Source: a virus. From it: a stretch of DNA of 25,715 nucleotides. The notes beneath the pieces are model-generated. The model was not told the origin of the DNA. It saw only the letters and a list, made by a program, of their open reading frames with translations, and ran no database searches. Below, in pieces: positions 2,091-25,715 of the stretch. Each line of letters opens with the position of its first letter. The stretch's first letter is position 1. The position numbers and the translations under genes are program-made. The stretch lies in IMG/VR virus record IMGVR_UViG_3300042887_002491, positions 1 to 25,715 of that record; one strand, written 5' to 3'.

Positions 2091-2091
2091 A

Positions 2092-4290
2092 TTAGTTTAG
2101 TCTCACTACTACTTCAAATATACAAACTTTACCATCATTTTTCTGAATTGGATTTCTTAGTTTGCCTACTGCCAAAAGTTCTTTTTTTCTATTGTACAAT
2201 CCAATAGTTGTTATGTAAGTGTGTGGGTCTTTTTTGAAATAATCGTATTTCAAAAATCCATCATTATCTTTTACATATGTATAATTAGTTGAATAGTTAA
2301 ATTCATTGAAATCTGCACGGCAGAAGTATGTTTCTGTTAGATGGGTTTCAAATGAACGAGCAAAAAATGAACTACTTGGTCTATATGATGTAGGTACGGC
2401 TGCGCCACTAATAGAAAGGAATAAACGATTTGAATTTTGTCCGTCTATGGAACTGGTTGCCGTATTGAATGAACAAGATTGATCGAGCACAACACCATCA
2501 AGAATAATCAATCCCATCTTTGGAAAAACAATTCCCCAAGCGTCATCGCTTGATTCATTATAAACCCCGTCACGAAGTGAGCCAGATGTCACATAATAGT
2601 ATTCTTGTATTCCTTCATTTGTAACAATCTCTTGTTTGGTATCTTTGCTCTCGTCTATAAGTGTAAATAACTTACTCGAACTCGGATGCATTACGGCACC
2701 ACTTGATGACAATTCACAAAGGGCTATTTCAAAGTTGCCAGCATCAAGTTTTTCTTTATACGCGCCTCTATCTAATTGTATTGCGTAGAAATAATCACCA
2801 TTTTTTCCATTTTTGAAAGGAAATTTACCTTCAGTATTTCCAAAACATTCCAACATATATTTACGATACATTGACTTTGCAGGATAAAGGTCAACTTCAC
2901 CTTGAATATAACTTGATCCAGAGCCAGAAATATGACAATATGTTACATCAAACTGATGATACGAGTCTGTTGTATATTGATGTTCATTGAAAACAGAAAG
3001 GTAATAAGTTTTTTGCTTCGGTGTAAGGGACCCAGTATAGAATGTTGAAAGTTTTTCACCAGTACATCTAAACAATCCTTTTGTTTTGTAACGGAGAATT
3101 GGAAGATCGTAATCTGATACCTTTGATATTTTTTTGAAGGCATAGACATTATTCTCATCTGTCTCAAGGTCTTCTATTATTTCATCGATGAACTCATCAA
3201 AATCGGATTGTTCTTGATTTATTTCATTTTGAATAATTAGAGCTTCCGGTGTTGGTTGTTCAACTGGTTTTGGTAAAACAACTATATTACCTTCCGATGT
3301 TACAGAGTATCGATTCGGGTCTTCTTCTGGAAATCCCGCGTCATTTATTTGGCGTAGTCTATCAAATAGATAGTTACGAATTAAACTTAGAAATATCAAC
3401 TCAATTTGCATTGGAGTTTTTGTACTAAAAATTCCCTGAGACTGTAATGCCATCTGATCCATCATTTGTATGATGAAATTAATTCTGTTCTCAGCTACCT
3501 TTAGATTTTTGTTTACGTCTTCTGTTGTATTTGCAATAAGTAATTCATTCTTTTGTTCGACGGGAACATCCGAATTTGCTATTTCAAGAGCGTTTTCAAA
3601 TCGTAGTATAGCCAACCTCTCTATTTCAGCAGGATCAATTACAGGTGGTGTGAATACATTACCCGTAAATATCGGTGGTGGGGGTGGCATTACAGTCGAT
3701 GGAACTACTGCGCTAAATGATGGTTTTATTTCACTCGGTGGAGTTGCAACAACAGGTGGTTCAAATATAGTTTCAACTTGTTGTATAGTCAAAAAATAAT
3801 CAGTAAGAGTTTTTTGATATTGTTCACTTACAAGAAACACGTATTGTACATAAGTTATGTATTCAGGTCTGTTGTATATGTATACTGGATTATTTGGGTC
3901 CGATACATCGAAACTCCAATTCTCTTGAATTGGAAGAGAACTTGCATTTACATCCTTATATGGTGCCCTTTTTGTGTAACGATATAGAACATCTAAACCA
4001 GCTAAAAAATTTCTATCAACTTTGGTATAAGTTGCAAGATCATCAAGTGTTTGTGATGATAGTCTGCCGGTTTCATAGTAATATTCTACGTCTGGAAGTT
4101 GTCTTGTTAGTTTATCTATATCAACATTTTCTTTTGTGGTAAGAAATATAGACTGATTTCTACCTGAGTTTATCGTATTTGGTACGTTAATTACTTCAAC
4201 TGTTTTTCCAACATTTATTGGCGTATTGAAATCCCCTTGCCACAAGGAACCTATAAATCCAACTTCCTTGATTTCATATTCTAAAGCCAT
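2092..4290 (-). CDS. Baseplate/fibre-like structural protein with the shared C-terminal module
   Basis: A 732-residue protein. Residues 398-732 form the module shared with the neighbouring genes: TKGLF at the start, a conserved F-LIDES segment, GLIILDGVVLD, a FNEFNYSTNYTYV segment, and the ending YITTIGLYNRKKELLAVGKL. The N-terminal 190 residues are unique to this gene, rich in Tyr and acidic residues, and of no family I recognise. A proline-rich linker follows at about 190-225, including a run of five prolines at PPPPPIF. Then come helical segments at about 225-290 (for example RLAILRFENALEIANSD) and an acidic stretch near 350-385. It starts one base after the TAA of the 888-residue gene, without a strong ribosome binding site. 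The likely role is a virion component of the baseplate periphery; the specific function is unknown. Confidence 0.72.
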   Translation of the reverse strand: MALEYEIKEVGFIGSLWQGDFNTPINVGKTVEVINVPNTINSGRNQSIFLTTKENVDIDKLTRQLPDVEYYYETGRLSSQTLDDLATYTKVDRNFLAGLDVLYRYTKRAPYKDVNASSLPIQENWSFDVSDPNNPVYIYNRPEYITYVQYVFLVSEQYQKTLTDYFLTIQQVETIFEPPVVATPPSEIKPSFSAVVPSTVMPPPPPIFTGNVFTPPVIDPAEIERLAILRFENALEIANSDVPVEQKNELLIANTTEDVNKNLKVAENRINFIIQMMDQMALQSQGIFSTKTPMQIELIFLSLIRNYLFDRLRQINDAGFPEEDPNRYSVTSEGNIVVLPKPVEQPTPEALIIQNEINQEQSDFDEFIDEIIEDLETDENNVYAFKKISKVSDYDLPILRYKTKGLFRCTGEKLSTFYTGSLTPKQKTYYLSVFNEHQYTTDSYHQFDVTYCHISGSGSSYIQGEVDLYPAKSMYRKYMLECFGNTEGKFPFKNGKNGDYFYAIQLDRGAYKEKLDAGNFEIALCELSSSGAVMHPSSSKLFTLIDESKDTKQEIVTNEGIQEYYYVTSGSLRDGVYNESSDDAWGIVFPKMGLIILDGVVLDQSCSFNTATSSIDGQNSNRLFLSISGAAVPTSYRPSSSFFARSFETHLTETYFCRADFNEFNYSTNYTYVKDNDGFLKYDYFKKDPHTYITTIGLYNRKKELLAVGKLRNPIQKNDGKVCIFEVVVRLN

Positions 4291-4291
4291 A

Positions 4292-6958
4292 TTACCAGTT
4301 CAGTCTAATTTTTATTAGAACATCATTATCAAATGTCTTGTTTATAGGTCTACTCAATTTAGCAACAGCAAGTAATTCATTGAAATCATTATACAAACCA
4401 ATCGATGTTATGTATGTTTGTGGGTTCTTGTCAAAACAAGCGTGTAAAAATTCACCGTTACTTCCACTAACATATGTTGGGTTGTTACTGAAATTACCAT
4501 ATGGTGCTGCAACTCTTACAAAGTAATGATTTGTTGTCTTGTATTTTACATTTCTTGCCTTCATATAAGAACCGAGGACACCAGAACCACTAATTGATGT
4601 AAATAGTTTGAATGAGTTATCTCCAGCTATGTTACTACCACTAACTGTATTGAATCCAAGTTCAGTATTCAACTTATATGGGTCAAGGACGATGATACCA
4701 AGATTAGGATAAACTATTCCGTATGTATGACGTGGTGTGTTTGAGTAAACTCCACTATTTAGACTACCACTTACGATGTCATATGAAACATATGGGTCGT
4801 GAGTACATGAAATTGTATCAGACCTATCATCAGAATCGTCAATGAATGTCATCACTTTGTTTGATGATGAGACTGCAACATTACTTCCAGTGAATACACT
4901 ATTCGCGTATGAACCACCACGAAGTTCTGCTAGAGCAAGTTCCCAATTACCAGGATCAATTCTATCGGACATTCCTGTTCTTGAGAAATTGATAACATAA
5001 ACATCATTGGATGCAGTTGGAATTCCATTCGTGTAGAATGTGAATTGTGTTTCTGGCAAGTCAAGGGTTAGTAATCTATACTGACCGTATATTGCCCGTG
5101 TTGGTGTATCATTTAGTTCGCCTTCTGCCCAAAGAGAACCAGAACCTTGATTGTTACCGTAAGCAACAGCAAAGTATGGAGTTTTACCACAAGAATCACA
5201 ATCAGTTACTTCGTAATAATGAGTCTTTGATGCAGTTGGTTGTGTTGAACTTGTATGATGACATTCAAGTGTTTGAGAACCACCGAAAAGACCTTTTGTT
5301 TTTGCACGAACTTTTGCAGAAATAACATCTTTACCCAAATCCAATGGGTGATATACCTTTATAGTTTCAGGTGAACAGTCTGCATCTTGTTTTCTGTAAT
5401 ATCTTACGAACGCACCTTTCAAATAAAGTTCTATTCTACCATCTTCATAGATGTGTGTTACATCTTTTTTGATAATGCCGTAACACTTATCGGAAGGATC
5501 GTCTTCTTCGTACTCATTTATTACTTCACGATACCCACAGTTTGGATCGATTTGTTCATTGGTGTACTCCGTATATCTACCGTTAGAAACAGGGTAGTTT
5601 TCAAGAGGTCCATCTGGAACATACGATATTATGTTGCCAGTAAAGTCCGGCGTTGCATAAACAGGATAACCATATTGGACTTCCCAAATTTGAACTTCAT
5701 CATATAATCTTGCTATCGCCAATCTACATGGTTTGTTTGGATGTTTTTGTAATGTATCGTTTACACCCGTGTCCACGTATCTCTTTTCCGTTGTTCCCGT
5801 TGGTTTTCTTGTTCCAGGAATTTCCACTCTATTGTTTCTGTCAATATATGGGCCTTGAGTTGGAGTATTTGGACCACCGGTTTGAGGAACTGTTATACAG
5901 TCACCACGTTGACCACAATCAGACGTAAATCCAGAAATTATTTGACCAGATGGGGATGATGTCTCATTATAAATCAACTTGTTTTGAAAAAGTTGACGTG
6001 TTTGACCATTTACTTGAATTGAACTTGTAAATTTGAATGCAAAATAATCATCAAAATTTTCAAATACAGGAGAAGATGTTGTAGAAGTTGGTGAAACTAA
6101 CTGTGAGGTTAGACAACTATCTGTCCATCTCTTATTATACCAACCAAGATTTTCTTTACTCGATATTGTTACAGTATTTCCGCCGGCATCTAATTTTTCA
6201 AGTATGAGTGTTGAACTAGGGCCAAGATTTGACATATCATAATACTGTTCAACCACTGGTCTCTTTCCACCATCAGGACAATTTTCATAGAACTTTGAAG
6301 ACTTTGATCTACCAAGTTCAACCCAACCAAGTTTTGTTTCACCATTTGCACAACACTTGTAGATTTCTGCAATAAGAATACATTGTTTATTTAGATTTAC
6401 AAATTCTGGACCAGAGTATTCTGGGAATGATTTTGTTGGTAGCTCTTTGATTGCTCCAATACGATATGTTGCATTTGCACATGGGTCTGGTGTACCACCC
6501 CCACCAACAGTTGTTGGAGGTAAAACGGGAGTCCCAGGGGTTCCAATAAAGCCACCACCTCCTGTTGTTCCGCCAACAAGGCCAGGTGTTCCTGGTTGAA
6601 CAGGACTTGTACTTACAGTTCCACCACCAGCAGTTATGGTTGGATTTGTAAATCCACCCTGTTGAGTTGTTGATGGTATTGTTACAGTTGGACCAACAGG
6701 AGTTCCACCACCCGTTTGACCAGGGGTTGTACCAGTACCACCGATACCAAATGTTCTAACAACACCAGTTCCAACATTATATTGAGTTGGGTCTATGAAA
6801 GAAATATTAGGAGCAGTTATTTGATTCTGAAGAAAATACTCTTCAGGTGTTTGTCCATATATGCGCAAAAAATCTTGTGCAATGGAAGTTCTTACTGGAC
6901 CTTCTGGTAAAGAAAGGTATTGTTGACCTAACACTAATTTGGTGGTATCTGATGCCAT
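4292..6958 (-). CDS. Large structural protein: Gly/Thr/Pro-rich linker, Cys-rich middle, shared C-terminal module
   Basis: An 888-residue protein with a modular build. Residues 1-60 are a short conserved-looking head (LGQQYLSLPEGP, then IYGQTPEEYF). Residues 61-160 are very rich in Gly, Thr and Pro with runs such as GGGG, and probably form an extended flexible linker. Residues 161-550 carry many cysteines, including KCCANG and DCDSC-type spacings, with two segments that look like related sub-domains (AIKELP..ILIAEIYKCC and CRLAIARLYDEVQIWEVQYG). Residues 556-888 are the module shared with four neighbours, with TFIDDSDDRSD, GIIVLDPYKL and the ending YITSIGLYNDFNELLAVAKL. It starts eight bases after the previous stop with no clear Shine-Dalgarno. 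The position after the wedge genes suggests a baseplate-peripheral or fibre role. The Cys-rich part has no family I recognise. Confidence 0.72.
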   Translation of the reverse strand: MASDTTKLVLGQQYLSLPEGPVRTSIAQDFLRIYGQTPEEYFLQNQITAPNISFIDPTQYNVGTGVVRTFGIGGTGTTPGQTGGGTPVGPTVTIPSTTQQGGFTNPTITAGGGTVSTSPVQPGTPGLVGGTTGGGGFIGTPGTPVLPPTTVGGGGTPDPCANATYRIGAIKELPTKSFPEYSGPEFVNLNKQCILIAEIYKCCANGETKLGWVELGRSKSSKFYENCPDGGKRPVVEQYYDMSNLGPSSTLILEKLDAGGNTVTISSKENLGWYNKRWTDSCLTSQLVSPTSTTSSPVFENFDDYFAFKFTSSIQVNGQTRQLFQNKLIYNETSSPSGQIISGFTSDCGQRGDCITVPQTGGPNTPTQGPYIDRNNRVEIPGTRKPTGTTEKRYVDTGVNDTLQKHPNKPCRLAIARLYDEVQIWEVQYGYPVYATPDFTGNIISYVPDGPLENYPVSNGRYTEYTNEQIDPNCGYREVINEYEEDDPSDKCYGIIKKDVTHIYEDGRIELYLKGAFVRYYRKQDADCSPETIKVYHPLDLGKDVISAKVRAKTKGLFGGSQTLECHHTSSTQPTASKTHYYEVTDCDSCGKTPYFAVAYGNNQGSGSLWAEGELNDTPTRAIYGQYRLLTLDLPETQFTFYTNGIPTASNDVYVINFSRTGMSDRIDPGNWELALAELRGGSYANSVFTGSNVAVSSSNKVMTFIDDSDDRSDTISCTHDPYVSYDIVSGSLNSGVYSNTPRHTYGIVYPNLGIIVLDPYKLNTELGFNTVSGSNIAGDNSFKLFTSISGSGVLGSYMKARNVKYKTTNHYFVRVAAPYGNFSNNPTYVSGSNGEFLHACFDKNPQTYITSIGLYNDFNELLAVAKLSRPINKTFDNDVLIKIRLNW

Positions 6959-6966
6959 ATTCTATC

Positions 6967-8031
6967 TTAATAATCTAGTTTAACTTTTATGACTAGCTCT
7001 CTGTCAAAAGACTTCTTTACAGGTTTGCTTAGTTTAGCGACCGCTAATAATTCTTGACTATCATCATACAATCCAATAGTAGTCACATAAACTTGTGGGT
7101 CTTTTACCATTGAATCATATTTCAAAATTCCTGTACTTCCACTTACAAATGAATTATTTGATGTATAATTATATTCTCCATTGAACATTCTAACAAAGTA
7201 ATATGTTGATGCAATTACTTCACTTGTTCTTCCTTGAAAAGAACGAGATACATTAGATGACATTGCTCCACTAATTGAAGTAAACAATTTCAAAGCGTTA
7301 TCATATCCACTTGCAGTTGCTGGAACTCTTTGTGTTGCGAAAGATGCCGAGGCATCAAGTGCTTGACCATTCAACACAATAACACCTCTATCTGGGTAGA
7401 AAAGTCCCCACGGTGTTGTATCTGATGTATAAATTCCATTTGCAATAGAACCGCTTCTCACATTATAAACTCTACCCCCTAATTGAGCAAGTTCAGTTGT
7501 AGTAGTCGTTGAATCATCAATAAGAGTGATATAATTATCACCAGAGCCAGATAGAGTTAGTTGCCACGATTTTGTATCCATTCTATCTTTGAATCTTGCT
7601 CTGTTTACATTTATAACGTAAATATACTCAGAAGTTTCTCCACTACCAAAGGTAAATAGATTATCACCAGAGTTCAATAACATCTGCCTATATTGAGAAT
7701 AGACTGCCTTTGTTGGATAGTCATAAAGATTCTGATTTGCAGAACCGGTTGATGAACCACTACCAACCGAATCCCCATAAGCAATACTGAATTGAGATTC
7801 AGCCCCTTGCATGTTTGATTGACTATTGAAAATTTCGTAATAGTATCTTTGTTGATTGGTTGATTGTGCCGAGCTTGTATAAATTGCAGTTAGGGCCGCT
7901 TGAGACTTAGACCACAAAGGAGCAGATACAACCTCTTTCTGATTTGGGGAAACATCTACATCATCCACAAATGGAGTAAATGTTTTTCCATTTCTCAAAC
8001 TTTTTCGTAGTAAAATCTCTTCTTGTGTCAT
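6967..8031 (-). CDS. Virion structural protein, stand-alone copy of the shared baseplate module
   Basis: About 354 residues, consisting almost entirely of the shared module after a short N-terminal extension. Landmarks are YYYEIFNSQSN, FSIAYGDSVGSGS, YVINVNRARFKDRMD, YITLIDDST, WGLFYPDRGVIVLNG, a KLFTSISGA segment, YYFVRMFNGEYNYTSN and YVTTIGLYDDSQELLAVAKL. I place the start at the ATG at 8031, four bases after the upstream TAA at 8036. An in-frame TTG at 8046 would overlap the previous gene and has no ribosome binding site. Compared with its sister gene at 8036-9145, the LAEL motif that follows the D-x-x-W-x-L segment is replaced by TLSGSG, so the two copies are clearly diverged rather than recently duplicated. 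A structural role is inferred from position and from the related modules. Confidence 0.72.
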   Translation of the reverse strand: MTQEEILLRKSLRNGKTFTPFVDDVDVSPNQKEVVSAPLWSKSQAALTAIYTSSAQSTNQQRYYYEIFNSQSNMQGAESQFSIAYGDSVGSGSSTGSANQNLYDYPTKAVYSQYRQMLLNSGDNLFTFGSGETSEYIYVINVNRARFKDRMDTKSWQLTLSGSGDNYITLIDDSTTTTTELAQLGGRVYNVRSGSIANGIYTSDTTPWGLFYPDRGVIVLNGQALDASASFATQRVPATASGYDNALKLFTSISGAMSSNVSRSFQGRTSEVIASTYYFVRMFNGEYNYTSNNSFVSGSTGILKYDSMVKDPQVYVTTIGLYDDSQELLAVAKLSKPVKKSFDRELVIKVKLDY

Positions 8032-8035
8032 GTTC

Positions 8036-9145
8036 TTAATACTCAAGTTTTACAGTAATTGATAACTCACTATTGAATGACTTTTGAAGTGGTTGACTTA
8101 GTTTTGCAACTGCCAACAAATCACCACCAGGTCTGTCATAAAGACCGATAGAAGTAATATATGTAACAGGTTCGTTTGTAAATGATGTATTGTTTACAAA
8201 TCCCGTTCCACTTCCAGTTACATATGTTGGATTGGTAGAGTAATTGAACTCATTGTTTCCTATTCTAACAAAATAAAAATCTTGTTGTTTTACATCAACA
8301 GCTCTTGCAATAAATCCGTATCCCTTTGTAGCAGAACCACTAATTGCGGTAAATAACTTAAAAGAATTATCACCATTGATATTGCTGCCACTTACACTAT
8401 TAAACGATGCAGAAACATTCAGTTTTTCACCAGATATGATGATTGTTCCTAAATCTGCGTAAACAAGTCCATAGTAATGTGGATTTGATGGATTATAAAT
8501 ACCACCTTCTAAAGAACCACTAACAAGATTTCTAACAGGTGATGGTATTCCATTATAACCTAAGCTATCACTTTGATCAACAGAATCGTCAATTAAACGT
8601 ATAATTGTAGGATTTGAACCAGAAATCTGAACATTACTACCTGTATGTAAAGAATTAACTTTACCACTACCACTCAATTCTGCAATACACAATTCAAAAT
8701 TACCTGGGTCTAATTTATCACCGACTTTACTTCTATTGAAATTTATAGCATAAAAATCATATAGTTTTGTTGAAGTTGAATCATTCAATGTAAATAAAGT
8801 TGAATTTGGATCCAAACAAATCAATCTGTATTGTGAATATATTGCTCTCGTTGGTGTATCTCCGGCTTCTCCTCCCTGTGAAAGAGAACCAGAACCTGCA
8901 TAATGACCATAAGCAACAGAAAATATCTGTGCGTCTTCACAGTCTAATGAGGCAGAACTCCATACTTCATAATAGTATTGACGAGATGATGTTCCTTGTA
9001 AAGAACTTGTAAAAAATGTAAGCAACTCACCCGTTCCAGATGTCCAAAGACCTCTCGTCTGTATAACTTTTTCCGGTTCTGTTCTTGGAAGACCATCTGA
9101 ACCGATAGGTCTTGCAACTGGTCTAAAAATTCTTGATTCTGGCAT
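8036..9145 (-). CDS. Virion structural protein, stand-alone copy of the shared baseplate module
   Basis: A 369-residue protein. After about 26 residues it is a full copy of the module repeated in the next three genes: TRGLWTSGTGELLTFFTSS at the front, YYYEVWSSASLD, FSVAYGHYAGSGS, TRAIYSQYRLICLD, FYAINFNRSKVGDKLDPGN, LCIAELSGSG, IIRLIDDSVDQSD, GLVYADLGTIIISG, SFKLFTAISGSA, FYFVRIGNNEFNYSTNPTYV and YITSIGLYDRPGGDLLAVAKL. The composition (Ser, Gly, Tyr, Asn; beta-strand pattern, no cysteine clusters, no membrane segment) suits an extracellular phage structural protein. The start ATG has AGGA seven bases upstream and follows the 226-residue gene by 16 bases. The precise baseplate position is not known. 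Confidence 0.74.
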   Translation of the reverse strand: MPESRIFRPVARPIGSDGLPRTEPEKVIQTRGLWTSGTGELLTFFTSSLQGTSSRQYYYEVWSSASLDCEDAQIFSVAYGHYAGSGSLSQGGEAGDTPTRAIYSQYRLICLDPNSTLFTLNDSTSTKLYDFYAINFNRSKVGDKLDPGNFELCIAELSGSGKVNSLHTGSNVQISGSNPTIIRLIDDSVDQSDSLGYNGIPSPVRNLVSGSLEGGIYNPSNPHYYGLVYADLGTIIISGEKLNVSASFNSVSGSNINGDNSFKLFTAISGSATKGYGFIARAVDVKQQDFYFVRIGNNEFNYSTNPTYVTGSGTGFVNNTSFTNEPVTYITSIGLYDRPGGDLLAVAKLSQPLQKSFNSELSITVKLEY

Positions 9146-13939: not shown

Positions 13940-15700
13940 TTATCCTATCTTTAACCAAGAACCACCCTTATCAACAACATTACTTATTTCCGATAAAATT
14001 CTTAATACTCGTAGTATCAATTGAATATCACTTGTGTTCTTTATTAATGATTGACCTTTTGACTTTGTTGATTGATCATCTGTGAAAGTATAAGTAGATT
14101 CCATTTCAAGTATAGATTTTCTTATTATTGGCCTTCCATTTCCCAAACTACCACCAATATCCCTAGACCATTCATCATACACGGTATTGATTATGTCTTT
14201 TATTTCACTTATACCACCATCGGAAGACAACAATTTCTTTGATTCCGTCAATACTGTGGTAGCTTTTGTTTTATCAGTAATACCATTTATCAAATCTTTA
14301 AATTGGGATTTATATGTATCATTCCATTTTAGAATTTGATTTATTTCCTGTCCAGGTCCAAATGAATTTGCAGATGCCGGTGGAGTAAACACATAATCTA
14401 ATTTTGGAGGTGGAGATTTAACATCTATGTTTTTCAATATAGTTTCCATAGAAGAATATCTACCATTTGGTATTGCATATATTTTATCCCACTCGGTAAA
14501 TATCTGTTTGATAATATCCGATGCGGGATTTCCTGGTGCAGGTGCTGGTTCTTTTGGCTTCAATGAATCTGCAATTCCACCAACGGCCTTTTCAAAAGCA
14601 GCAAGTTGTTTTGCAGAAGCTTCTTCGGATTTTTTGGCCTGTGCTTCGATCTTTGTTGAAAGTGCATCGAATGCATCTGCCGTATTTGAAAGTTGTTTAG
14701 ATACATTACTCTCAAGGTCTGAAAGTGTTGAGTCGATTACTTCGCTAAGTGAAGATATAGTTTCGTCTTTTATCTGATTTTCGTCAACAATAAGATTTCT
14801 TTGATCTGTGAGCTCGTCTATTATTCTATTCAAATCGTCTATATTTTCTTGTTTTATATCGACTGTTTCATTAAGATTATTTATCTGACCTGATAATGTT
14901 TCGACTTTTGCCTGTAATGCAGGTATCGTATTTCCGTTTTCAACTATTAGTTTTTTTAAATTTTCAGTTAGAGTTTTTTCATCGGTTGATATTCCACCAT
15001 TACCCGTTTCTGTATTTAGTAATGTTTCAAATTCAGCAGCTTTTTTCAAAACATTTTTCTCCGCAACAACCGCATCGGGTAAACTTTTAAACTCATTATT
15101 TACAACATAATTGAAAGATAAAATAGTAAAACGTTCATCTAACAAATCTACTTTTATGGAACCCTTATTTCGCAAATAATTATCAAAAGAAACTATTCTA
15201 CCATACTCATCTCTTGTTGCAATTGGTTCTGTATCAATATCTTTTTTAGTTTTCTTGGTCAATTCATCCATCATTTGCTTCAATTGTTCAGATGGAAGAA
15301 TACCCGTTTCACTACCAGTTAATATTTTTCGAACAATAAAACTAAAAAATGGATCTAATGGTTGTGATTTTATACTGTTTAAAATATTTACATCATTTTG
15401 AACTTTCCCTGAATCTATGATTGCTTGAATTTTTCTTTCTTCGGTTATGTACTTCTTTACATAATCATAATCAGTAGATGATTTGAAATTTTTCAATTGT
15501 TCTAAAAGTTGATCTTTTTGTGGAAAGGTAGTTCCTTTCGAAACATTAGATTTACGATAGGCCAATTTTATACCGTTTCTTTGGAAGAAACCATAGAAAT
15601 CATCATTCGTATTGAATTCCAAATTTGGAAATTCAGAAACAAGTGATTCCGCCTGTGTGGATTCTATACCCTGTTCAAATAAAAATTGCTCTATACGCAT
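13940..15700 (-). CDS. Coiled-coil structural protein of unknown function
   Basis: A 586-residue protein. The N-terminal 220 residues are globular and of no family I recognise, opening with MRIEQFLFEQGIESTQAESL. Residues 232-378 or so form a long heptad-patterned coiled coil (for example LVDENQIKDETISSLSEVID-like repeats and AQAKKSEEASAKQLAAFEKA). A short Pro/Ala hinge follows (KEPAPAPGNPA), then a helical C-terminal domain of about 190 residues ending RVLRILSEISNVVDKGGSW. There is no membrane segment. The start ATG overlaps the upstream TAA by one base (TAATG), with AAGG ten bases away. Its place between the wedge genes and the tail-protein-I-like gene suggests a baseplate component, perhaps a rod or strut, but nothing in the sequence fixes the role. 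Confidence 0.65.
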   Translation of the reverse strand: MRIEQFLFEQGIESTQAESLVSEFPNLEFNTNDDFYGFFQRNGIKLAYRKSNVSKGTTFPQKDQLLEQLKNFKSSTDYDYVKKYITEERKIQAIIDSGKVQNDVNILNSIKSQPLDPFFSFIVRKILTGSETGILPSEQLKQMMDELTKKTKKDIDTEPIATRDEYGRIVSFDNYLRNKGSIKVDLLDERFTILSFNYVVNNEFKSLPDAVVAEKNVLKKAAEFETLLNTETGNGGISTDEKTLTENLKKLIVENGNTIPALQAKVETLSGQINNLNETVDIKQENIDDLNRIIDELTDQRNLIVDENQIKDETISSLSEVIDSTLSDLESNVSKQLSNTADAFDALSTKIEAQAKKSEEASAKQLAAFEKAVGGIADSLKPKEPAPAPGNPASDIIKQIFTEWDKIYAIPNGRYSSMETILKNIDVKSPPPKLDYVFTPPASANSFGPGQEINQILKWNDTYKSQFKDLINGITDKTKATTVLTESKKLLSSDGGISEIKDIINTVYDEWSRDIGGSLGNGRPIIRKSILEMESTYTFTDDQSTKSKGQSLIKNTSDIQLILRVLRILSEISNVVDKGGSWLKIG

Positions 15701-16872
15701 TAACGTTGAACCTTGAAATAATATTGATTGTCAAATATTTGATTACTATCACCACCATCTGTTTCTGTCTTTATGAGAATACGATAATATCTTTCAGGTT
15801 GAAAAGAATTCATCCACAAATTGAAATAATTACCTTGAGAATCACAACTAATTTTTGTTCCAAGATTATCAAATGGGATAATTATTTCATCTGTATGGGC
15901 ATCACGTATTTCATAGTAAGATGAAGTCGGTAAGTAGTAATTTTGTGTATAGTAAGATTGTGTAGTGTATAATTTTTGTGGGTATCTTGAATTTACATGA
16001 ATTCTTATTTTTGCTTTTTCGTTTTCTGAGTAGTATTTTTTCAACTTTACGTTTAGTACGGAGTCTTCTAACTGAATTGCAGATATACTCCCAGTTACAA
16101 ATGAAGAATCATCCCAAACAATGTGGAGTTTTGGTGAATATATTGTATTACTATCAACAGAGAAGAATTTTAAACTAGTTAGTGTTTGATTTGAATCTTC
16201 TATGTTTGCACCAAATTTTAGAATAAACCCTTCGTTATCAAATCTACCAGAACCAGTTATCCATTTTTTCACAATTGGTGTTACATCCATGTATATGTCT
16301 GATGATTCATATGAGAATGATTGAGTACACTCAGCACCTTCCCATGTCCACCATGTTCCGCCACCGACCGTTGAAAAATAAGAACCAGTTACAGATGCAA
16401 ATAAAGCTCCAAAAATCAGATTTGCGTCAACCCATGTTTCCGATATTTCGTCCCATTCATAATTTATACCACCAGTTACTTCTGTTACTCCCCATAAAGT
16501 ACCAACCGATTTTGAAGTTCTATACTTCCAAGAAACACCATCTGTGGTTGATGGTGTGTTGAAGTATTTACCAGTTCCATTTACCCAAGAACCGCTTATA
16601 GGATAAGCATATATCGTATATTCTTGTGGAATCTCTCTAGCTTCAGAAGTTCTAAGTTCCAAATAATACTTTGCGTTTGAACTTATTTTACCAGCGTTTA
16701 CACCAGATTCTATCTCAGATACATCAAATTTCATCAAAATACGGCTATTGTATTTAGATGATGAACCGACTAATTGATGAGATAATTCAAGAATCTGGTC
16801 CGTTCCAGTATTCATTGAATCTGTTTTTTCATAAATCGTTGCATCGTATTTTGGATATATGGTGTATATCAT
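15700..16872 (-). CDS. Virion structural protein with DNRLRE-like N-terminal domain
   Basis: A 390-residue protein. Its start has the signature of DNRLRE-type beta-sandwich domains: YPKYDATIYEK, then NTGTDQILEL, then SRILMKFDVSEI, followed by a long aromatic-rich body. A second domain begins near residue 258 with strands such as VLNVKLKKYYSENEKAKIRI and ends RYYRILIKTETDGGDSNQIF. DNRLRE-type domains occur in secreted bacterial surface proteins and some bind carbohydrate. Here the gene sits directly after gp6 in an assembly operon, so a structural part on the baseplate is most likely. The ATG overlaps the gp6 stop by four bases (ATGA) and has GAGG eight bases upstream, implying translational coupling to gp6. 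The exact function is unknown. Confidence 0.68.
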   Translation of the reverse strand: MIYTIYPKYDATIYEKTDSMNTGTDQILELSHQLVGSSSKYNSRILMKFDVSEIESGVNAGKISSNAKYYLELRTSEAREIPQEYTIYAYPISGSWVNGTGKYFNTPSTTDGVSWKYRTSKSVGTLWGVTEVTGGINYEWDEISETWVDANLIFGALFASVTGSYFSTVGGGTWWTWEGAECTQSFSYESSDIYMDVTPIVKKWITGSGRFDNEGFILKFGANIEDSNQTLTSLKFFSVDSNTIYSPKLHIVWDDSSFVTGSISAIQLEDSVLNVKLKKYYSENEKAKIRIHVNSRYPQKLYTTQSYYTQNYYLPTSSYYEIRDAHTDEIIIPFDNLGTKISCDSQGNYFNLWMNSFQPERYYRILIKTETDGGDSNQIFDNQYYFKVQR

Positions 16873-18770
16873 CTAAATGCCCTCACTCTACCAATGATGT
16901 CATTATCAGGGTATTTTATTTCAAAAATAGATGGATCAAGTGATGGAAATATAATACCATCTTTCGTTGCCTTATCAATATTATATGCATATCTTGAATA
17001 TCCAAGAGTTGTATCATAGAAATTTACAATCTTTACATTAGATACTGTTTGAACCCCATCAACTCTATCAAGTTCAGTATAGATATTACTTATTATAATT
17101 GGTTGATTTATTTGCCAACGTTTTATATCAAAGTATCTTTTTAGTTTATCAATACATCGTAGGATTACTTGATTTCCATTTTGATCAGGTAGTGTTATTA
17201 TATCAAATTCCAAACCAATATTTATAATATACGCGTCCTTTATATTGATCGCGTCTGTCAACATTCTATGCTGGCCAAGATATGTCTTCAAGTTTTCTTT
17301 TGTTGCGGTGTTTATTGTGGTCAACTTATTGTTACCATCATATCCTAATACATAAAAATTGAGTGCCAAATCATTTCCAACTCTATCACTATTGAATATA
17401 GAATCTTCAGTTAGTTGAGTATCTTTAGTAATATATGCCTTTGCAATAGAACCATACTTTTGTGGAAGACTATATGCCCGTATGATGTAATCTTCTTTTG
17501 TTACCGCACGATTTTGTGAAGCAAATGATGCTAAAGCATTTTGACGAATTTCATCTATTGTTTCTCCGTCTTTACCACCCGTTGATGGTTCAGAATTTGT
17601 TACTGCCAAACTACCGACCACTTGATTGTATAATGTTATATCCAATCCAGATTCATCTAAAACTATCGTCTTGCTGATTATTCTCGTTAGAGTTTCTGAT
17701 GCAACGTTATCTTTTATCCCACCACCCTGTGTGTAGTAAATGGTAAGTGTTGTATTGTTTGGAGCAAGACCGTATGTTTTTGTGTAAAGAAAATTTGATG
17801 GGTCGATATTTGGAGAAGTGGACGATTCTATACCAGTAATAGAAGAACCTATCAAATCTGGATTTGGTATTAGTTCTTCATCATCTAAATCAGATACACC
17901 AGCGCCAAAACTAATTTCATACTGACTATTGAAATTATTACCAAACGCACGAGAAGTGAATCGTCTCGATACTCTATTCAATTTTAAGAGATAAGGTGTT
18001 TCTGTTCTATATGAACTTAACGATTTATCATTTCTAGGTATGTTTGCAACCGCTTCAAATAATGTATCTTGTGCAAGATATGGAACATGGTACCATTTGT
18101 TTCCATCCGAATCAATTCCATAAAGAATTTCAATTATTTTATCATCTGTTAATGTTATTTTGTCATATGGTTTTGGTGAACCAAATGTATAGTTTGAAGT
18201 TTTTACAACACCAGACACGGCTTTTACAGATTTCTTTAAAAGATAGAAACTCGGTTCATTTGAAATATCATCCACTTCAAAAACAGTAACTTCAGTTGGA
18301 TCGAATGAACTACTGAATCTAAAATCCAAGTAATCAAGTGTTCTGAATTGTATAGAGTTATCTGATTCTGCGGCAACCTGCATACCAGGTTCTATAGCAA
18401 AGGCGTAATTCCAATCGGGTCTGTTATTCAAACCACTTCCAATTGCCGGTAATATTTGAAATACATCAAGTGTTACATTCGCAGCAACTGATGTTTTTGG
18501 TCTATATCCAAAAGATTGGGCAAGATTTATTATATTCTGTGTTTCTGACGCTTGTAGAATCATAGATTCTTGCAAAGCAACATCAGTATAGTATGATAAA
18601 ACATCACCCACATATGCAGACATTTCCATGAATAACATACCAGGTGATGATTCGTTGAAATCTTGGTATGAATTTGGAAAATAGTTTTTTGCAAAATCAA
18701 TCAGATTTTGTCTTAGTGTTCCGAAATCTCTTGCCAGATAACGTATATCTTTTTTTACTAAATCAGCCAT
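16869..18770 (-). CDS. 6: Baseplate wedge protein, gp6-like (baseplate J family)
   Basis: A 633-residue protein, close to the 660 residues of T4 gp6. In T4-type baseplates gp6 forms the inner ring that ties wedges together around the hub and changes shape when the tail contracts. The N-terminus is typical: IRYLARDFGTLRQNLIDFAK, then ESSPGMLFMEMSAYVGDVLS, then ESMILQASETQNIINLAQSF. The baseplate-J core is seen near residues 403-436, with GETIDEIRQNALASFASQNR and AVTKEDYIIRAYSLP, followed by YILGYDGNN-like strands and a C-terminal PDNDIIGRVRAFR. It begins one base inside the stop of the gp25-like gene (TAATG), with GAGG ten bases upstream. The gp25-gp6 pair is a hallmark of contractile injection systems. 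Confidence 0.93.
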   Translation of the reverse strand: MADLVKKDIRYLARDFGTLRQNLIDFAKNYFPNSYQDFNESSPGMLFMEMSAYVGDVLSYYTDVALQESMILQASETQNIINLAQSFGYRPKTSVAANVTLDVFQILPAIGSGLNNRPDWNYAFAIEPGMQVAAESDNSIQFRTLDYLDFRFSSSFDPTEVTVFEVDDISNEPSFYLLKKSVKAVSGVVKTSNYTFGSPKPYDKITLTDDKIIEILYGIDSDGNKWYHVPYLAQDTLFEAVANIPRNDKSLSSYRTETPYLLKLNRVSRRFTSRAFGNNFNSQYEISFGAGVSDLDDEELIPNPDLIGSSITGIESSTSPNIDPSNFLYTKTYGLAPNNTTLTIYYTQGGGIKDNVASETLTRIISKTIVLDESGLDITLYNQVVGSLAVTNSEPSTGGKDGETIDEIRQNALASFASQNRAVTKEDYIIRAYSLPQKYGSIAKAYITKDTQLTEDSIFNSDRVGNDLALNFYVLGYDGNNKLTTINTATKENLKTYLGQHRMLTDAINIKDAYIINIGLEFDIITLPDQNGNQVILRCIDKLKRYFDIKRWQINQPIIISNIYTELDRVDGVQTVSNVKIVNFYDTTLGYSRYAYNIDKATKDGIIFPSLDPSIFEIKYPDNDIIGRVRAFR

Positions 18771-19288
18771 TAGTTCTGTGCCTCTTCAATTACACGAATA
18801 GTTGCGGTCTCTGAAATAAATATCCTGATTGGTAAATATATGTTCGTTCCGGAGATTAGAACTCGTAAGAATATACCGATAGCGTGTGATGGGTCATCAA
18901 TTCTGCCGTCTTCAGTCATATTTAAATTTACAGTAAGTTCTGTTATTAGTAGATATGGCAACCATCTTGATATTGCGCCTTCTATCTCACCACGTAGTCT
19001 TGTAGAAAATTCTTCCTCATCCGTAATATTTTCAAATAATACCGCTCGTATATCTGTTCCAAATTCAGGCTCAAAGTACCTTTCTCCCTTTGCAGTAAGT
19101 AAAAGATTCTTCAAATTACTCAAAACTTGTTCTCTATTAGTTATACTAGTAAAGAAGATTCCATTTGGATTATTAAAAGGTAAAGTTACCCCAATAGGTT
19201 TTATAGCACCAGGTCTTCTAATATCTCTGAATTGAGAACTGTTTTGATCGATGGGATTTAGAATTAGTGATTTTCTACGAAATGCCAT
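18770..19288 (-). CDS. 25: Baseplate wedge protein, gp25-like (GPW/gp25 family)
   Basis: A 172-residue protein, longer than T4 gp25 (132 residues) because of an N-terminal extension of about 40 residues. Gp25 anchors the wedge to the hub and nucleates sheath assembly. The family signature lies at residues 55-90: VLSNLKNLLLTAKGERYFEP, FGTDIRAVLFE, and the characteristic E-x-E-F pattern of the turn before RLRGEIEGAISRWLPYLLI. The C-terminal half has the expected strands (ITELTVNLNM, then IFLRVLISGTNIYLPIRIFI). GGAG lies seven bases before the ATG within the end of the upstream gene, two bases after its stop. It is followed directly by the gp6-like gene, as in many T4-like and P2-like tails. Confidence 0.95.
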   Translation of the reverse strand: MAFRRKSLILNPIDQNSSQFRDIRRPGAIKPIGVTLPFNNPNGIFFTSITNREQVLSNLKNLLLTAKGERYFEPEFGTDIRAVLFENITDEEEFSTRLRGEIEGAISRWLPYLLITELTVNLNMTEDGRIDDPSHAIGIFLRVLISGTNIYLPIRIFISETATIRVIEEAQN

Positions 19289-19741: not shown

Positions 19742-22498
19742 TTACACCTCCATTATTTCACGTAATACATTATTATAGGCAAATGATATTATACTTTTTT
19801 CCTTTTTATTTAGAATATCCACATAATTCTGATATAGTTCTGTTTTTTTTACGGTAAATCCTATCCCATTAGTATAGGGAATAGAGTCACCTCGTCTTAC
19901 AAAGTAAATTAGTTGAGAGAAAGTTGCATCAGTATTGTCTCCCATAAAATCATAAAGAGTTGCATATTTTTTGAATCCCATGGCATTACCATCACGTACT
20001 GATTCTGTGAAGCCGGAATTTCCAAAAATTACAAATAACCTACCATCTTTCCCGAAGTGTAATACCAATTCGGTGTGGCCAGATGTGTCAATTTTATTAG
20101 TCGTTTTATTTTTTGATTTTTTACGCCTGACAATGTATGCACCCGGCCATTTTTTTATCAATTCCCATAATTCAAGTCCCTCTGATGTTAGACCCTTTTT
20201 GTCAAAATGTTCTCCTAACTTAAATTTTACAATATTACCATTTGGATTATATTTTTGTTCAGGTGTGTTCTCAATTTGAGATTTTTCCTTTTCCAATACT
20301 TTAAGTTCTTCTTCGTATTGTTTTTTTGTAGTTTCCTTATTAGATATGTTTCTGTTGATACCATCAATTTTTATGGTTAAAGTTTTTTCTCGTTTCAATT
20401 CTGAAGAACTTTTTCCGGTTGTGTTGGCTAGAATATTATCTAATTCTTTTTCTTTTGGAGCTTTTTCTGAATTTAGTTTAATAATTTCAGATTCCAATGA
20501 TTTTATTTGAGTTTTTTTAGACTCTATATCTTTGTTTTTTGACTTTATGATTTGTTCTTTTTGTGATTTAGTACCACCATCTGGGTTTACAGCGGCGCCT
20601 TCTTCGTTGAAATATTTATCAACAGATGATGTTCCAACTATTGGTTTATCGTTTGAATCTGATTTGTATTCTCCATTTTTGTATAACAGAAAATCAACAG
20701 TAAATCCACACCAAAATGGCGTATGTGCCCAGTTGGCATCTATTTTTGTTGAATCTTTTCCATATTCTTTGTTACCAATTCCACCCTCGTTCTTACGTTC
20801 AACTCCATCTGCATTTGTTATGATTAGATGAGTTTCAGAACCTTCCGAAAATGTGTATGGAATGTTTTTATTGAAAAGACCAACATCCCGTGGGTTACAT
20901 AACAATGCAACATCAATTGGTGAATTTATTTTCGATGCATATCCTTTGAAAAATGCATTTTTATTGGTTCCAAAAGAAAATAAACTTTTATATTTTGCGT
21001 TATTAGTATCCGTCTTTATTCCTTTTATAATAGGAACGGGTTGTGGATCAGTTTTTGGATATGTTTTCTCGCGTTCTCCTCGATACCAAATACCAGGACC
21101 GTCTCCACTCACGCGTCCTTCTTCGCCTCTTCTCCACGTATCAAAAGTTTTTTCAACACCGATATGATTTATTGGTTCTGGTTTTTTATCTTCTGGGACT
21201 GGTTTTGATCGTTCTTCGGTTGCAGTAGCTCTACCTTCTGATAGTTCTGGATTTCCACCGGCTGGTGAAGTTGATGATTTTAGCTTTGCATTATATCTCT
21301 CAATCGCATCTGATTCCTCACCTTTTCTTTGTGCATCAGTAGATTGTGTAATCTGTTCAATTTCTTTATTGGCAACCTCTGTGTTTATTCCAGTAGTCGG
21401 TGGCTTTGGTTGTTCATTGGATTCAGATTCTGACTTTTGTGTTTGTATTGTCTTTATTTCATTTGAACTTTGATAATCACCTACAGTTGGATCGTCATCT
21501 TTCAAGGATACCAACGATAATACTTTACGACGACCAGTCGAATTTTGAGGAATTACGGGATCGTCATCTTTTATACTTTCGATTGAAAGGTATTTAGAAC
21601 CACCAGTTTTTGTTTTAGTATTTTGTGAAGATGTTGTTACAGGTGTACTTGTACTTGAAGTAGTCGTAGATGTTGTACTTGGAGTGGTTGTTGGTGCACT
21701 TGTAACTTGAGTAGTTGATGTTGGAGTTATTTGGTTTTCAGGTGTTCTAGACGTAGGTGTTGTTGTAAGTGTTGAAGGAGTTGTACTTTGAGTAGAATTA
21801 CTCTCACCATATAATTCGTCCCACCCTTCCGGTTTAGGAAAAATTGAATTAAATTCACCTTTTACTCCATCTGGTGCATCTATTGATGGAATTACTATAA
21901 CAGGTATAGAATTTACAGGTAACTTTTTATCTAAATCTAACTCATAATTTATATCTTCTATATGTCTATAAAAATTTTTATTTTCATATAACTGTCTAAT
22001 TGGGTATGAAAAAATAGATAATGCCTTACTTAAATCTTTATATGATACTACACTAATTCGTTCAGTATACGGACTTACAGTATCAACAGAGGATGCTTCT
22101 GTTTCACCAATATTTCTGAGGTATAATACTTCTGATACTGAAATAGTTATCGGTACGCCACCATTATTGTCACTACGTGATGAATTTAAATTACAGTAAC
22201 CATAGAGAGACAAATAAGCAAAAATTTCATCTTTTGTTGAAAATTTTGATTCAAAATCAGATCTTAGTTTTGAACCTTGTTTCACAGGTGGCAGATTTAC
22301 AAAATTCCAAAGTTCTTCATCGGATTTATAAAGGTCATTTATAGTATAAATTGAAGATATTACAGAAACGTTGTTTTTGATTTCTGCAAATTTTCTTACC
22401 TCTTGAGATATTTGTGAGCCAAAAATAGCATAAAGTTTCAACAGTTTTTCTTTTCTGTCTTGCTGGTATTTTTGTACTAATTCTTCTCTTGTTGCCAT
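19742..22498 (-). CDS. Tail-associated protein with interrupted CHAP/NlpC-like cysteine peptidase domain
   Basis: A 918-residue multidomain protein. Residues 1-230 form a globular N-terminus of unknown type (YTINDLYKSDEELWNFVNLP). A Thr/Ser-rich linker spans about 233-294. Two copies of an L-S-(I/L)-x-S-(I/L)-KDDDP motif follow at about 303-316 and 328-340. The catalytic domain begins near residue 590 with TPFWCGFTVDFLL (Cys597), resumes after a 95-residue coiled coil (644-738) with LWELIKKWPGAYIVRRKK, and contains SGHTELVLHF (His808) and FGNSG (Asn827). This W-C, GH, GN order matches peptidoglycan-cleaving CHAP-type phage domains such as those labelled TIGR02594, from memory. The neighbouring gp5-like hub lacks a lysozyme domain, so this protein likely opens the cell wall during injection. 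No signal peptide is visible. The substrate bond is unknown. The ATG has only a weak GAGA upstream. Confidence 0.75.
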   Translation of the reverse strand: MATREELVQKYQQDRKEKLLKLYAIFGSQISQEVRKFAEIKNNVSVISSIYTINDLYKSDEELWNFVNLPPVKQGSKLRSDFESKFSTKDEIFAYLSLYGYCNLNSSRSDNNGGVPITISVSEVLYLRNIGETEASSVDTVSPYTERISVVSYKDLSKALSIFSYPIRQLYENKNFYRHIEDINYELDLDKKLPVNSIPVIVIPSIDAPDGVKGEFNSIFPKPEGWDELYGESNSTQSTTPSTLTTTPTSRTPENQITPTSTTQVTSAPTTTPSTTSTTTSSTSTPVTTSSQNTKTKTGGSKYLSIESIKDDDPVIPQNSTGRRKVLSLVSLKDDDPTVGDYQSSNEIKTIQTQKSESESNEQPKPPTTGINTEVANKEIEQITQSTDAQRKGEESDAIERYNAKLKSSTSPAGGNPELSEGRATATEERSKPVPEDKKPEPINHIGVEKTFDTWRRGEEGRVSGDGPGIWYRGEREKTYPKTDPQPVPIIKGIKTDTNNAKYKSLFSFGTNKNAFFKGYASKINSPIDVALLCNPRDVGLFNKNIPYTFSEGSETHLIITNADGVERKNEGGIGNKEYGKDSTKIDANWAHTPFWCGFTVDFLLYKNGEYKSDSNDKPIVGTSSVDKYFNEEGAAVNPDGGTKSQKEQIIKSKNKDIESKKTQIKSLESEIIKLNSEKAPKEKELDNILANTTGKSSSELKREKTLTIKIDGINRNISNKETTKKQYEEELKVLEKEKSQIENTPEQKYNPNGNIVKFKLGEHFDKKGLTSEGLELWELIKKWPGAYIVRRKKSKNKTTNKIDTSGHTELVLHFGKDGRLFVIFGNSGFTESVRDGNAMGFKKYATLYDFMGDNTDATFSQLIYFVRRGDSIPYTNGIGFTVKKTELYQNYVDILNKKEKSIISFAYNNVLREIMEV
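19745..19751 (-). promoter_or_regulatory. Strong ribosome binding site of the 149-residue gene
   Basis: GGAGGTG lies inside the last three codons of the peptidase gene; the GGAGG core is six bases before the ATG at 19740. The stop of the upstream gene and this start are one base apart, so translation is probably coupled. Confidence 0.85.
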
Positions 22499-24210: not shown

Positions 24211-24942
24211 TTAGTCCTCAATAATGTCTTGAATATCAAACCAATCCATATCTGCAATATTCTGACCTTCCGTGTACGCCTCGTAAAGTCTTCCATAGAT
24301 AAGTTTGAATTTTGTAATTACATTTGTTATGTACTGTGTTTTTATGCCTGTTCGTTCTCTAATTAGGATATAAAGTGCCTTTTTGTTGTAATTCTCAATA
24401 TTTTCACGAGTTTTGAACAAATAGAGAACTGAGTCTGCAACTTGTAAGTCTCTATTCTTTGTAAATACAAGTGGTAAAAATTGTTCCATTATATCTACAA
24501 AAATATCGATGAAGTCTTTTTGTTCGTCTACAAAGTCATTGCGTATCTGTTCATTTACGATATTACGTTCAGAGTCAATAGACTCTATGGTATGTCTCTT
24601 TTTGTAGAGATAATAGTTTTTATTATTTTCAGCAATTAGATAGTTTTTAGCAACTATTGAGAAATACGAGAATGCTTTGAATCCACTATCCCCATCATAC
24701 TTACCGAGTTTTTCATGTAAGAAAGCAACAACTTCATGTTTTACATCTTCATGTGACACATCAAAATTGTAGAACTTGAATCGGTGAATCATTATCTCAG
24801 ATAACTTATAAAATGCCGGATGTATTCTTTTTGTGTAGATTATGTTTCGTTCAATGGGGTCTTCACAACGGTTGTATTCGTTTATTGCGTCTTCTGTTTC
24901 TTGTGTAAAGTAGACGTTCTGTTTTTTCTTTTTTACTTCCAT
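24211..24942 (-). CDS. 55: Late-transcription sigma factor, T4 gp55-like
   Basis: A 243-residue protein that probably binds host RNA polymerase core and directs it to phage late promoters. The sigma region 2-like part lies at residues 38-110: MIHRFKFYNFDVSHEDVKHE, VVAFLHEKLGKYD, and GFKAFSYFSIVAKNYLIAEN, the same layout as T4 gp55 (FNF..., LHNFD, NPHAYITQ). Residues 167-220 include NKKALYILIRERTGIKTQYI and TNVITKFKLIYGRLYE, which look like a helix-turn-helix resembling sigma region 4; T4 gp55 (185 residues) lacks one. The last 13 residues (DMDWFDIQDIIED) are hydrophobic and acidic like the sliding-clamp-binding tail of T4 gp55. The start overlaps the upstream TGA by one base (TGATG) and has AGAGG five bases upstream. 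Confidence 0.85.
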   Translation of the reverse strand: MEVKKKKQNVYFTQETEDAINEYNRCEDPIERNIIYTKRIHPAFYKLSEIMIHRFKFYNFDVSHEDVKHEVVAFLHEKLGKYDGDSGFKAFSYFSIVAKNYLIAENNKNYYLYKKRHTIESIDSERNIVNEQIRNDFVDEQKDFIDIFVDIMEQFLPLVFTKNRDLQVADSVLYLFKTRENIENYNKKALYILIRERTGIKTQYITNVITKFKLIYGRLYEAYTEGQNIADMDWFDIQDIIED

Positions 24943-25266: not shown

Positions 25267-25715
25267 TTATCCTCTCTTGAATTTTGGCTCGATGATTGAA
25301 TCAATTACACCAAGTCCAAGTGCTTCTTCAGGTGAAAGGTAATAATCTTTGAGTGTTGTTTCTTTCCAAAACTTTGCATCTTTGTTTGAGTTTTCACTCA
25401 TAATTTGAACAAGAACTTCTTCCAACTTTTCCATGTGTTGTACGTTTGCCTTCATATCCGATGACTTACCATAGATACCTGAAGACATCTCGTGGAACAT
25501 GATTGTACTGTTCTTTGATGCAGCACGAATACCGGTTCCAGAACATAGGAGAAGAGCGGCGGCTGACATAGCACGTCCCCTACAAATTGTATTTACCTTT
25601 ACGTTGAGTGATTGAATAAAGTCAATCATACCGAGTGCTTCGTATACATCACCACCGTCAGAATTGATGATAATGTTGATTGGGGCATCCTTCTTTTCAT
25701 CATCTCTCATGTGAA
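25267..25715 (-). CDS. clpP: ClpP-family serine protease (5' end beyond window)
   Basis: The reading frame is open to the right edge of the window. About 148 codons are visible; a full ClpP has about 200, so roughly the first 50-60 residues are missing and the ATG at 25710 is unlikely to be the true start. Counting from that ATG, the catalytic triad is present: Ser49 in GRAMSAAALLLCSG, His73 in NSTIMFHEMSSG, and Asp122 in LKDYYLSPEEALGLGVIDSI. The Ser-His and His-Asp spacings (24 and 49) closely match E. coli ClpP. The oxyanion-loop segment INIIINSDGGDVYEALGMID is also typical. In a phage structural cluster it may process capsid or other virion proteins, or act with a host Clp ATPase; the sequence does not decide. 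The next gene starts one base after its TAA. Confidence 0.92.
   Translation of the reverse strand, partial: HMRDDEKKDAPINIIINSDGGDVYEALGMIDFIQSLNVKVNTICRGRAMSAAALLLCSGTGIRAASKNSTIMFHEMSSGIYGKSSDMKANVQHMEKLEEVLVQIMSENSNKDAKFWKETTLKDYYLSPEEALGLGVIDSIIEPKFKRG
25270..25275 (-). promoter_or_regulatory. Ribosome binding site that decides the start of the small membrane protein
   Basis: AGAGGA lies within the final codons of the ClpP-like gene, four bases before the ATG at 25265. It favours this start over upstream in-frame starts inside ClpP. Confidence 0.7.

Follow-up and report, generated by a model that had tools for sequence, protein, structure and literature searches.

A putative baseplate-associated cell-wall hydrolase of a phage, with a coiled-coil hairpin predicted inside its papain-like catalytic domain

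How can a protein carry the cysteine and histidine motifs of a CHAP/NlpC-like enzyme and still hold 211 residues between them? The question is raised by a gene for a 918-residue protein in a 25.7 kb viral record, which was analysed over its whole length (25,715 nucleotides; hereafter the window) and in which the main genes all lie on the minus strand. In this protein Cys597 sits in an FWCGF motif, His808 in SGHTE and Asn827 in GNSG, and translation of the open reading frame confirmed these positions and the 211-residue separation between Cys597 and His808, as given by an earlier sequence-only reading. The same reading had put the usual spacing at well under 100 residues, and rightly so: the two residues are 49–62 positions apart in 30 TIGR02594-type proteins and 60–87 positions apart in six CHAP domains of phages, identified with PF05257. 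The TIGR02594-type set was drawn from 34 bacterial loci collected by means of a DNA motif for DDETPWCAAFV; 21 of its proteins were sampled, and each of them scores as TIGR02594. The features discussed below are collected in Table 1.

Table 1. Positions of the 918-residue protein, its parts and the neighbouring baseplate genes in the window.
Feature	Position	Strand	Basis
gp6-like baseplate wedge protein, synteny anchor	16869..18770	-	phrog_6 E=1e-18, weak Baseplate_J
gp25-like baseplate wedge protein, slot marker	18770..19288	-	PF04965 E=9e-10, phrog_261
918-residue putative baseplate/tail-associated cell-wall hydrolase, entire gene	19742..22498	-	ORF
Residues 1-232, N-terminal domain, also present in nearest homologues	21803..22498	-	full-length alignments
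Residues 233-440, linker rich in Thr/Ser/Pro, with SIESIKDDDPVI segment	21179..21802	-	sequence
Residues 495-641, putative split catalytic domain, half 1, including W590, W596 and C597	20576..21016	-	alignments, hhalign to TIGR02594, structure model
Cys597, putative nucleophile, in first turn of helix	20708..20710	-	
Residues 642-743, predicted antiparallel coiled-coil hairpin inside domain	20270..20575	-	heptad test, AlphaFold2
Residues 744-918, putative split catalytic domain, half 2, and conserved C-terminus	19745..20269	-	hhalign to TIGR02594, structure model
His808, putative general base, in beta strand	20075..20077	-	
Asn827, putative third active-site residue, GN-SG / GGN motif	20018..20020	-	

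The 918-residue protein has no match at threshold in Pfam, PHROG or NCBIfam, no match was found in the named-phage records searched, and a bacterial genome scan returned no relative. Viral scans using the protein itself yielded few or no new loci, L102 and L103 being gained in this way. Homologues were gathered by synteny with the gp6-like gene (80 + 80 loci, partly overlapping), and hmmsearch over the open reading frames of these loci found approximately 40 homologous domains, which define a new domain family. Its members exist in several insert states. The Cys–His spacing is 194–217 residues in the coil-bearing homologues, with 321 in L026, and 209–213 in L016 and L019, which carry a different insert. 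Four proteins with the cysteine (L038, L053, L074 and L112) are coil-free, with a spacing of 112–114 residues, while L020–L022 lack both the cysteine and the coil and show a corresponding spacing of 70–72. The presence of the coil needs a single change on the tree. The domain formed by residues 1–232, a probable anchor, is swapped as one unit between L011 and L103, and L003 has a collagen-like linker at the place of the Thr/Ser/Pro-rich one. The protein encoded at L103:2666-5332 is 90% identical to L011 over its N-terminal 419 residues, its catalytic half being closest to L102 (44%), so that modules have been exchanged with a breakpoint at a domain boundary.

To compare the family with TIGR02594, its alignment was cut to the columns of the coil-free L038 and aligned by hhalign with the 30 TIGR02594-type proteins. 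The alignment has a probability of 93.7, an E value of 1.9e-7 and a score of 54.4, against a maximum of 23.6 for 100 column shuffles and 15.1 for the reversed profile, and it pairs WC with WC, H with H and GGN with GGN. Each half also aligns separately: the N-terminal half with an E value of 7e-4 and the W-C motifs paired, and the C-terminal half with an E value of 1.2e-6 and the GH and GGN motifs paired. The coil-bearing set taken alone reaches an E value of 1.3e-5 and a score of 43.8 (shuffle maximum 18.2), covering the His half. Small family subsets taken alone align marginally, as does the coil-free Cys-bearing subset, which scores 29.5 (shuffle maximum 26.5). The paired motifs in the coil-free columns identify the predicted catalytic domain as a divergent TIGR02594/CHAP-like (papain-fold) domain that is split by an insertion. 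The curated cut-off of TIGR02594 (70.55 bits) lies well above the family, since the 918-residue protein gives no match and L016 scores 9.9 bits; the family is therefore related to TIGR02594 and is not filed there. The CHAP gathering score (PF05257) is likewise not reached by the 918-residue protein.

The structural models agree with this assignment and with features expected of peptidase clan CA (NlpC-P60-CHAP group), namely a W-C cysteine where a helix begins, a histidine in a later strand and a polar third residue. AlphaFold2 was run on residues 441–918 with 20 homologues (pTM 0.73, with a pLDDT of 90–98 in most blocks); in the resulting model Cys597 begins a helix (596–607), the histidine lies in or at a strand and the asparagine lies just past the next strand. 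The coil-free L038 was modelled with a pTM of 0.84, and its cysteine is at a helix N-terminus, its histidine in or at a strand and its asparagine after the next strand. Foldseek found no hit at E<=0.001 for the model of the 918-residue protein against the PDB or for that of L038 against the PDB and viral structures; the weak matches include several clan CA entries, with CHAP, PlyGRCS, PcsB, SpeB and USPs represented, as well as viral proteins of the CHAP/NlpC/TIGR02594 types. For the coil-bearing model the list is led by USP28, LSD1 and MacA, with TM values below 0.25 that are driven by the coil. In profile searches of the PDB, coiled coils dominate the matches of the whole domain, and nothing relevant came up with a coil-free profile or with profiles of the halves. 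A papain-type domain from which a coiled coil projects, as the sequence-only reading had proposed, is thus supported by the separate alignment of the halves, by a coil-free register that spans both motifs and by the models.

The surroundings of the gene point to where such a protein might act. The gene is flanked by genes for a 450-residue and a 149-residue protein, and downstream of it follow the 149-residue gene, the gp25-like gene and the gp6-like gene, which makes this a baseplate block of a contractile-tailed phage. At gp6, the nearest named phage is Microcystis phage Mel-JY01 (70% identity), followed by Flavobacterium phages. Elsewhere in the window, the gene adjoining gp6 (15700-16872) has a weak match to a CBM96 carbohydrate-binding module (E 6.8e-5, under the cut-off), and five consecutive tail genes on the minus strand (315-9145) are paralogues. 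Four of these have in common a C-terminal region of approximately 330–370 residues (35–48% identity), and the fifth (315-2090), which also carries a Laminin_G_3 domain, has its last 39 residues in common with two of the other four. A 243-residue protein (24211-24942) resembles by eye a T4 gp55-type late sigma factor, the Pfam match being absent, and positions 25267-25710 match head maturation protease/ClpP-like PHROGs (phrog_94 E=1.7e-36).

In relatives, the position before the gp25-like gene is held by GH19-type proteins (Mel-JY01, L027 and L030) or by GH19+M15 proteins (L034 and L040). The gene therefore has what is expected of a virion-associated lysin, lying among baseplate genes and in a slot that holds known lytic enzymes in relatives. 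This slot looks like an exchangeable lysin cartridge, to judge from its predicted contents, which may be GH19, GH19+M15, GH24+VanY or the split Cys domain. The first 56 residues of the coil-free, L038-type proteins match the N-termini of the GH19 slot proteins of L037, L030 and Mel-JY01 (E values of 8e-12, 1e-10 and 1.5e-4, respectively), so that different enzymes share one probable anchor. Very large multi-enzyme proteins occupy the slot in L141, L147, L140 and L128, with an N-terminal region that is alpha/beta-hydrolase-like by eye; those of L140, L141 and L147 carry GH24+VanY and that of L128 carries an NAGPA-type domain.

The state of the three candidate residues was scored in every homologue, among which several contigs end short at the 5' end. 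The cysteine is present in 22 proteins, some of them near-identical, and all 22 keep the histidine and the asparagine. The remaining 18 have Ala, Asp or Ser at the Cys position, and often Arg, Tyr or Phe in place of the histidine. A search with Pfam and with profiles built from the slot proteins, which finds relatives of those types, detected another lytic domain in none of the 22 Cys-bearing proteins, and an M15/VanY, GH24, GH19 or NAGPA-type domain in all 18 Cys-less ones. This replacement domain is part of the same polypeptide, except in L022, where it is encoded by the adjacent gene. A 785-residue gene with an M15/VanY-type motif and an NAGPA-type domain adjoins the Cys-less slot protein at L022:412-2769 and L023:2137-4494. 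Among 17 columns that are invariant in the Cys-bearing rows, nine remain so in the Cys-less rows, including W590, W596, N535, N543, Y548 and E555, while His808 drops to 42% (H, R, Y or F) and is among the most relaxed columns. Such a pattern is how a catalytic pair lost from a retained scaffold would be expected to look. The sequence-only reading had counted homologues lacking either residue as evidence against its proposal; such homologues exist, yet in each of the 18 another lytic domain stands in, and the loss of the cysteine therefore speaks in favour of catalysis. The complementarity between the cysteine and the other lytic domains supports Cys597 and His808 as the putative catalytic residues. 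The tree has just two changes in the state of the cysteine, too few for a test of this association on independent pairs to become significant.

The 918-residue protein is probably a baseplate- or tail-associated peptidoglycan hydrolase, a papain-fold relative of TIGR02594 and CHAP with an active site made up of Cys597, His808 and Asn827. We infer that it is enzymatically active and present in the virion. Its C-terminal half would be a domain with a papain fold, acting as a cysteine amidase or endopeptidase. The chain would leave this domain past the Cys helix as a two-helix antiparallel coiled coil, running out and back over approximately 100 residues, and would then re-enter it to supply the His strand; as the hairpin begins and ends at one place, the domain core could still fold. 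The phage would in this way carry in its virion a cysteine murein hydrolase that is delivered with the baseplate.

Evidence for the coil itself comes from the heptad pattern, the a and d positions being enriched in core residues over 644–738 (shuffle p=0.008) and over 650–690 (p=0.004), and from the model, in which long helices span 642–691 and 698–743 with a short turn between them. The coiled coil that had been read at 644–738 is therefore present as an antiparallel hairpin with a break at about 692–697, not as one continuous coil. It also makes up most, but not all, of the extra length as had been suggested: approximately 100 of the approximately 155 extra residues belong to it, and the remainder includes a second small insert (GEHF...GLT..G.ELW..I..WPGA). 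Sequence identity among six close homologues averages 30% in the coil and 51–52% in both core halves, and across the eight main proteins with a coil the distance from the cysteine to the GxH segment is steady at 157–176 residues; the coil may thus be a rod whose length counts more than its sequence. By eye, L020–L022, which are without the insert, have a long helical stretch upstream of the domain, which fits a spacer role. Most likely the coil is a rigid arm by which the enzyme is spaced, or made to oligomerise, at the baseplate, and not an obligatory inhibitory lever.

According to the sequence-only reading, the coil might be a mechanical or inhibitory device, a lever or sensor that would keep the enzyme inactive in the virion and release it once the baseplate rearranges. 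Precedents exist in USP25, a cysteine protease whose catalytic domain has a coiled coil inserted in its middle, through which an auto-inhibited tetramer is built (PMC6255862), and in PcsB, where a model has the CHAP domain freed from its coiled-coil domain via FtsX (PMC6355983). USP28 leads the Foldseek list for the 918-residue protein, though the match is coil-driven (TM 0.16), and the Cys-less branch L020–L022, in the clade of the 918-residue protein, has no coil. Mildly against such a device, the active-type proteins L038, L053, L074 and L112 occupy the same slot without a coil and L016 and L019 have a different insert, so that the coil seems unneeded for safe carriage in the virion, and its low sequence identity relative to that of the core is unlike that of a docking surface. 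An inhibitory function is thus unlikely; since there are coil-free relatives of the active type, a rigid arm acting as a spacer or in oligomerisation is preferred to an inhibitory lever.

That the C-terminal domain of this protein is a non-enzymatic structural or binding module, in which the three residues have been kept by chance, appears improbable. Nearly half of the scored family has no nucleophile and keeps the fold-defining residues, which points to a second, non-catalytic use of the fold; however, the 918-residue protein retains Cys, His and Asn, as each of the other Cys-bearing members does, and has no other lytic domain. It is a bolder and also rather doubtful proposal that the hairpin may be a force- or contact-coupled gate that activates a baseplate-borne cysteine murein hydrolase at infection, a phage counterpart of USP25/28, with the fold being reused as an inactive structural module wherever another lytic enzyme has been fused to it. 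A processing protease, acting in baseplate maturation or self-cleavage, is very improbable: the substrate does not follow from a papain-like fold by itself, but in relatives the slot is filled by cell-wall enzymes (GH19, GH24 and M15/VanY) that alternate strictly with the cysteine, and a TIGR02594 protein has been annotated as a putative phage endolysin (PMC5418858).

Under the preferred reading, that of a hydrolase with a spacing arm, these proteins are a family of probable phage tail lysins, absent from Pfam, PHROG and the named-phage records searched, in which a coiled coil lies inside a papain-like catalytic domain. What appears to be new is that a divergent lysin family of papain-like type carries an inserted coiled coil and has its activity replaced by that of other enzymes. 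The interchange of an intact Cys–His pair with other cell-wall hydrolases in one baseplate slot amounts to a natural experiment, the replacement pattern predicts from sequence both the catalytic residues and which copies are active or inactive, and, with coil-bearing and coil-free proteins available as natural pairs, what the insertion does can be tested directly.

Among known systems, TIGR02594 has the W-C motif at a helix start, a G-H-V strand and GGN in identical order, while its Cys–His spacing of 49–62 residues differs from the 112–114 of the coil-free relatives, the 211 of the 918-residue protein and the 321 of L026, and the new family has an extra conserved N-terminal segment (SP.D.ALL.N..VG.FNKN.PY.F.EG.E.H). 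CHAP domains (PF05257) follow the same Cys–His–Asn/Glu logic and supply the weak Foldseek neighbours 2k3a, 8xyf and 4cgk; Pfam gives no match, and the CHAP of Gram-positive phages was rejected as the closest family because a profile of six phage domains aligns no better than shuffles. Tail-borne cell-wall enzymes are known among the virion-associated lysins of tailed phages, as in the T4 gp5 type and phage K ORF56 (reviewed in PMC5380687), which belong to other enzyme families; the 918-residue protein is placed here from its position among the baseplate genes. Pneumococcal PcsB also combines a coiled coil with a CHAP-type murein hydrolase (PMC6355983), but there the coil forms a domain of its own, attached through a linker, and does not interrupt the catalytic domain. 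USP25 and USP28 offer an architectural parallel, since in these cysteine proteases a long coiled-coil insertion of two helices divides the catalytic domain (PMC6255862). They form an unrelated eukaryotic family in which the insertion serves to oligomerise and autoinhibit the enzyme; USP28 was rejected as a relative, its Foldseek match being coil-driven and low in TM, and the parallel is kept as an analogy only.
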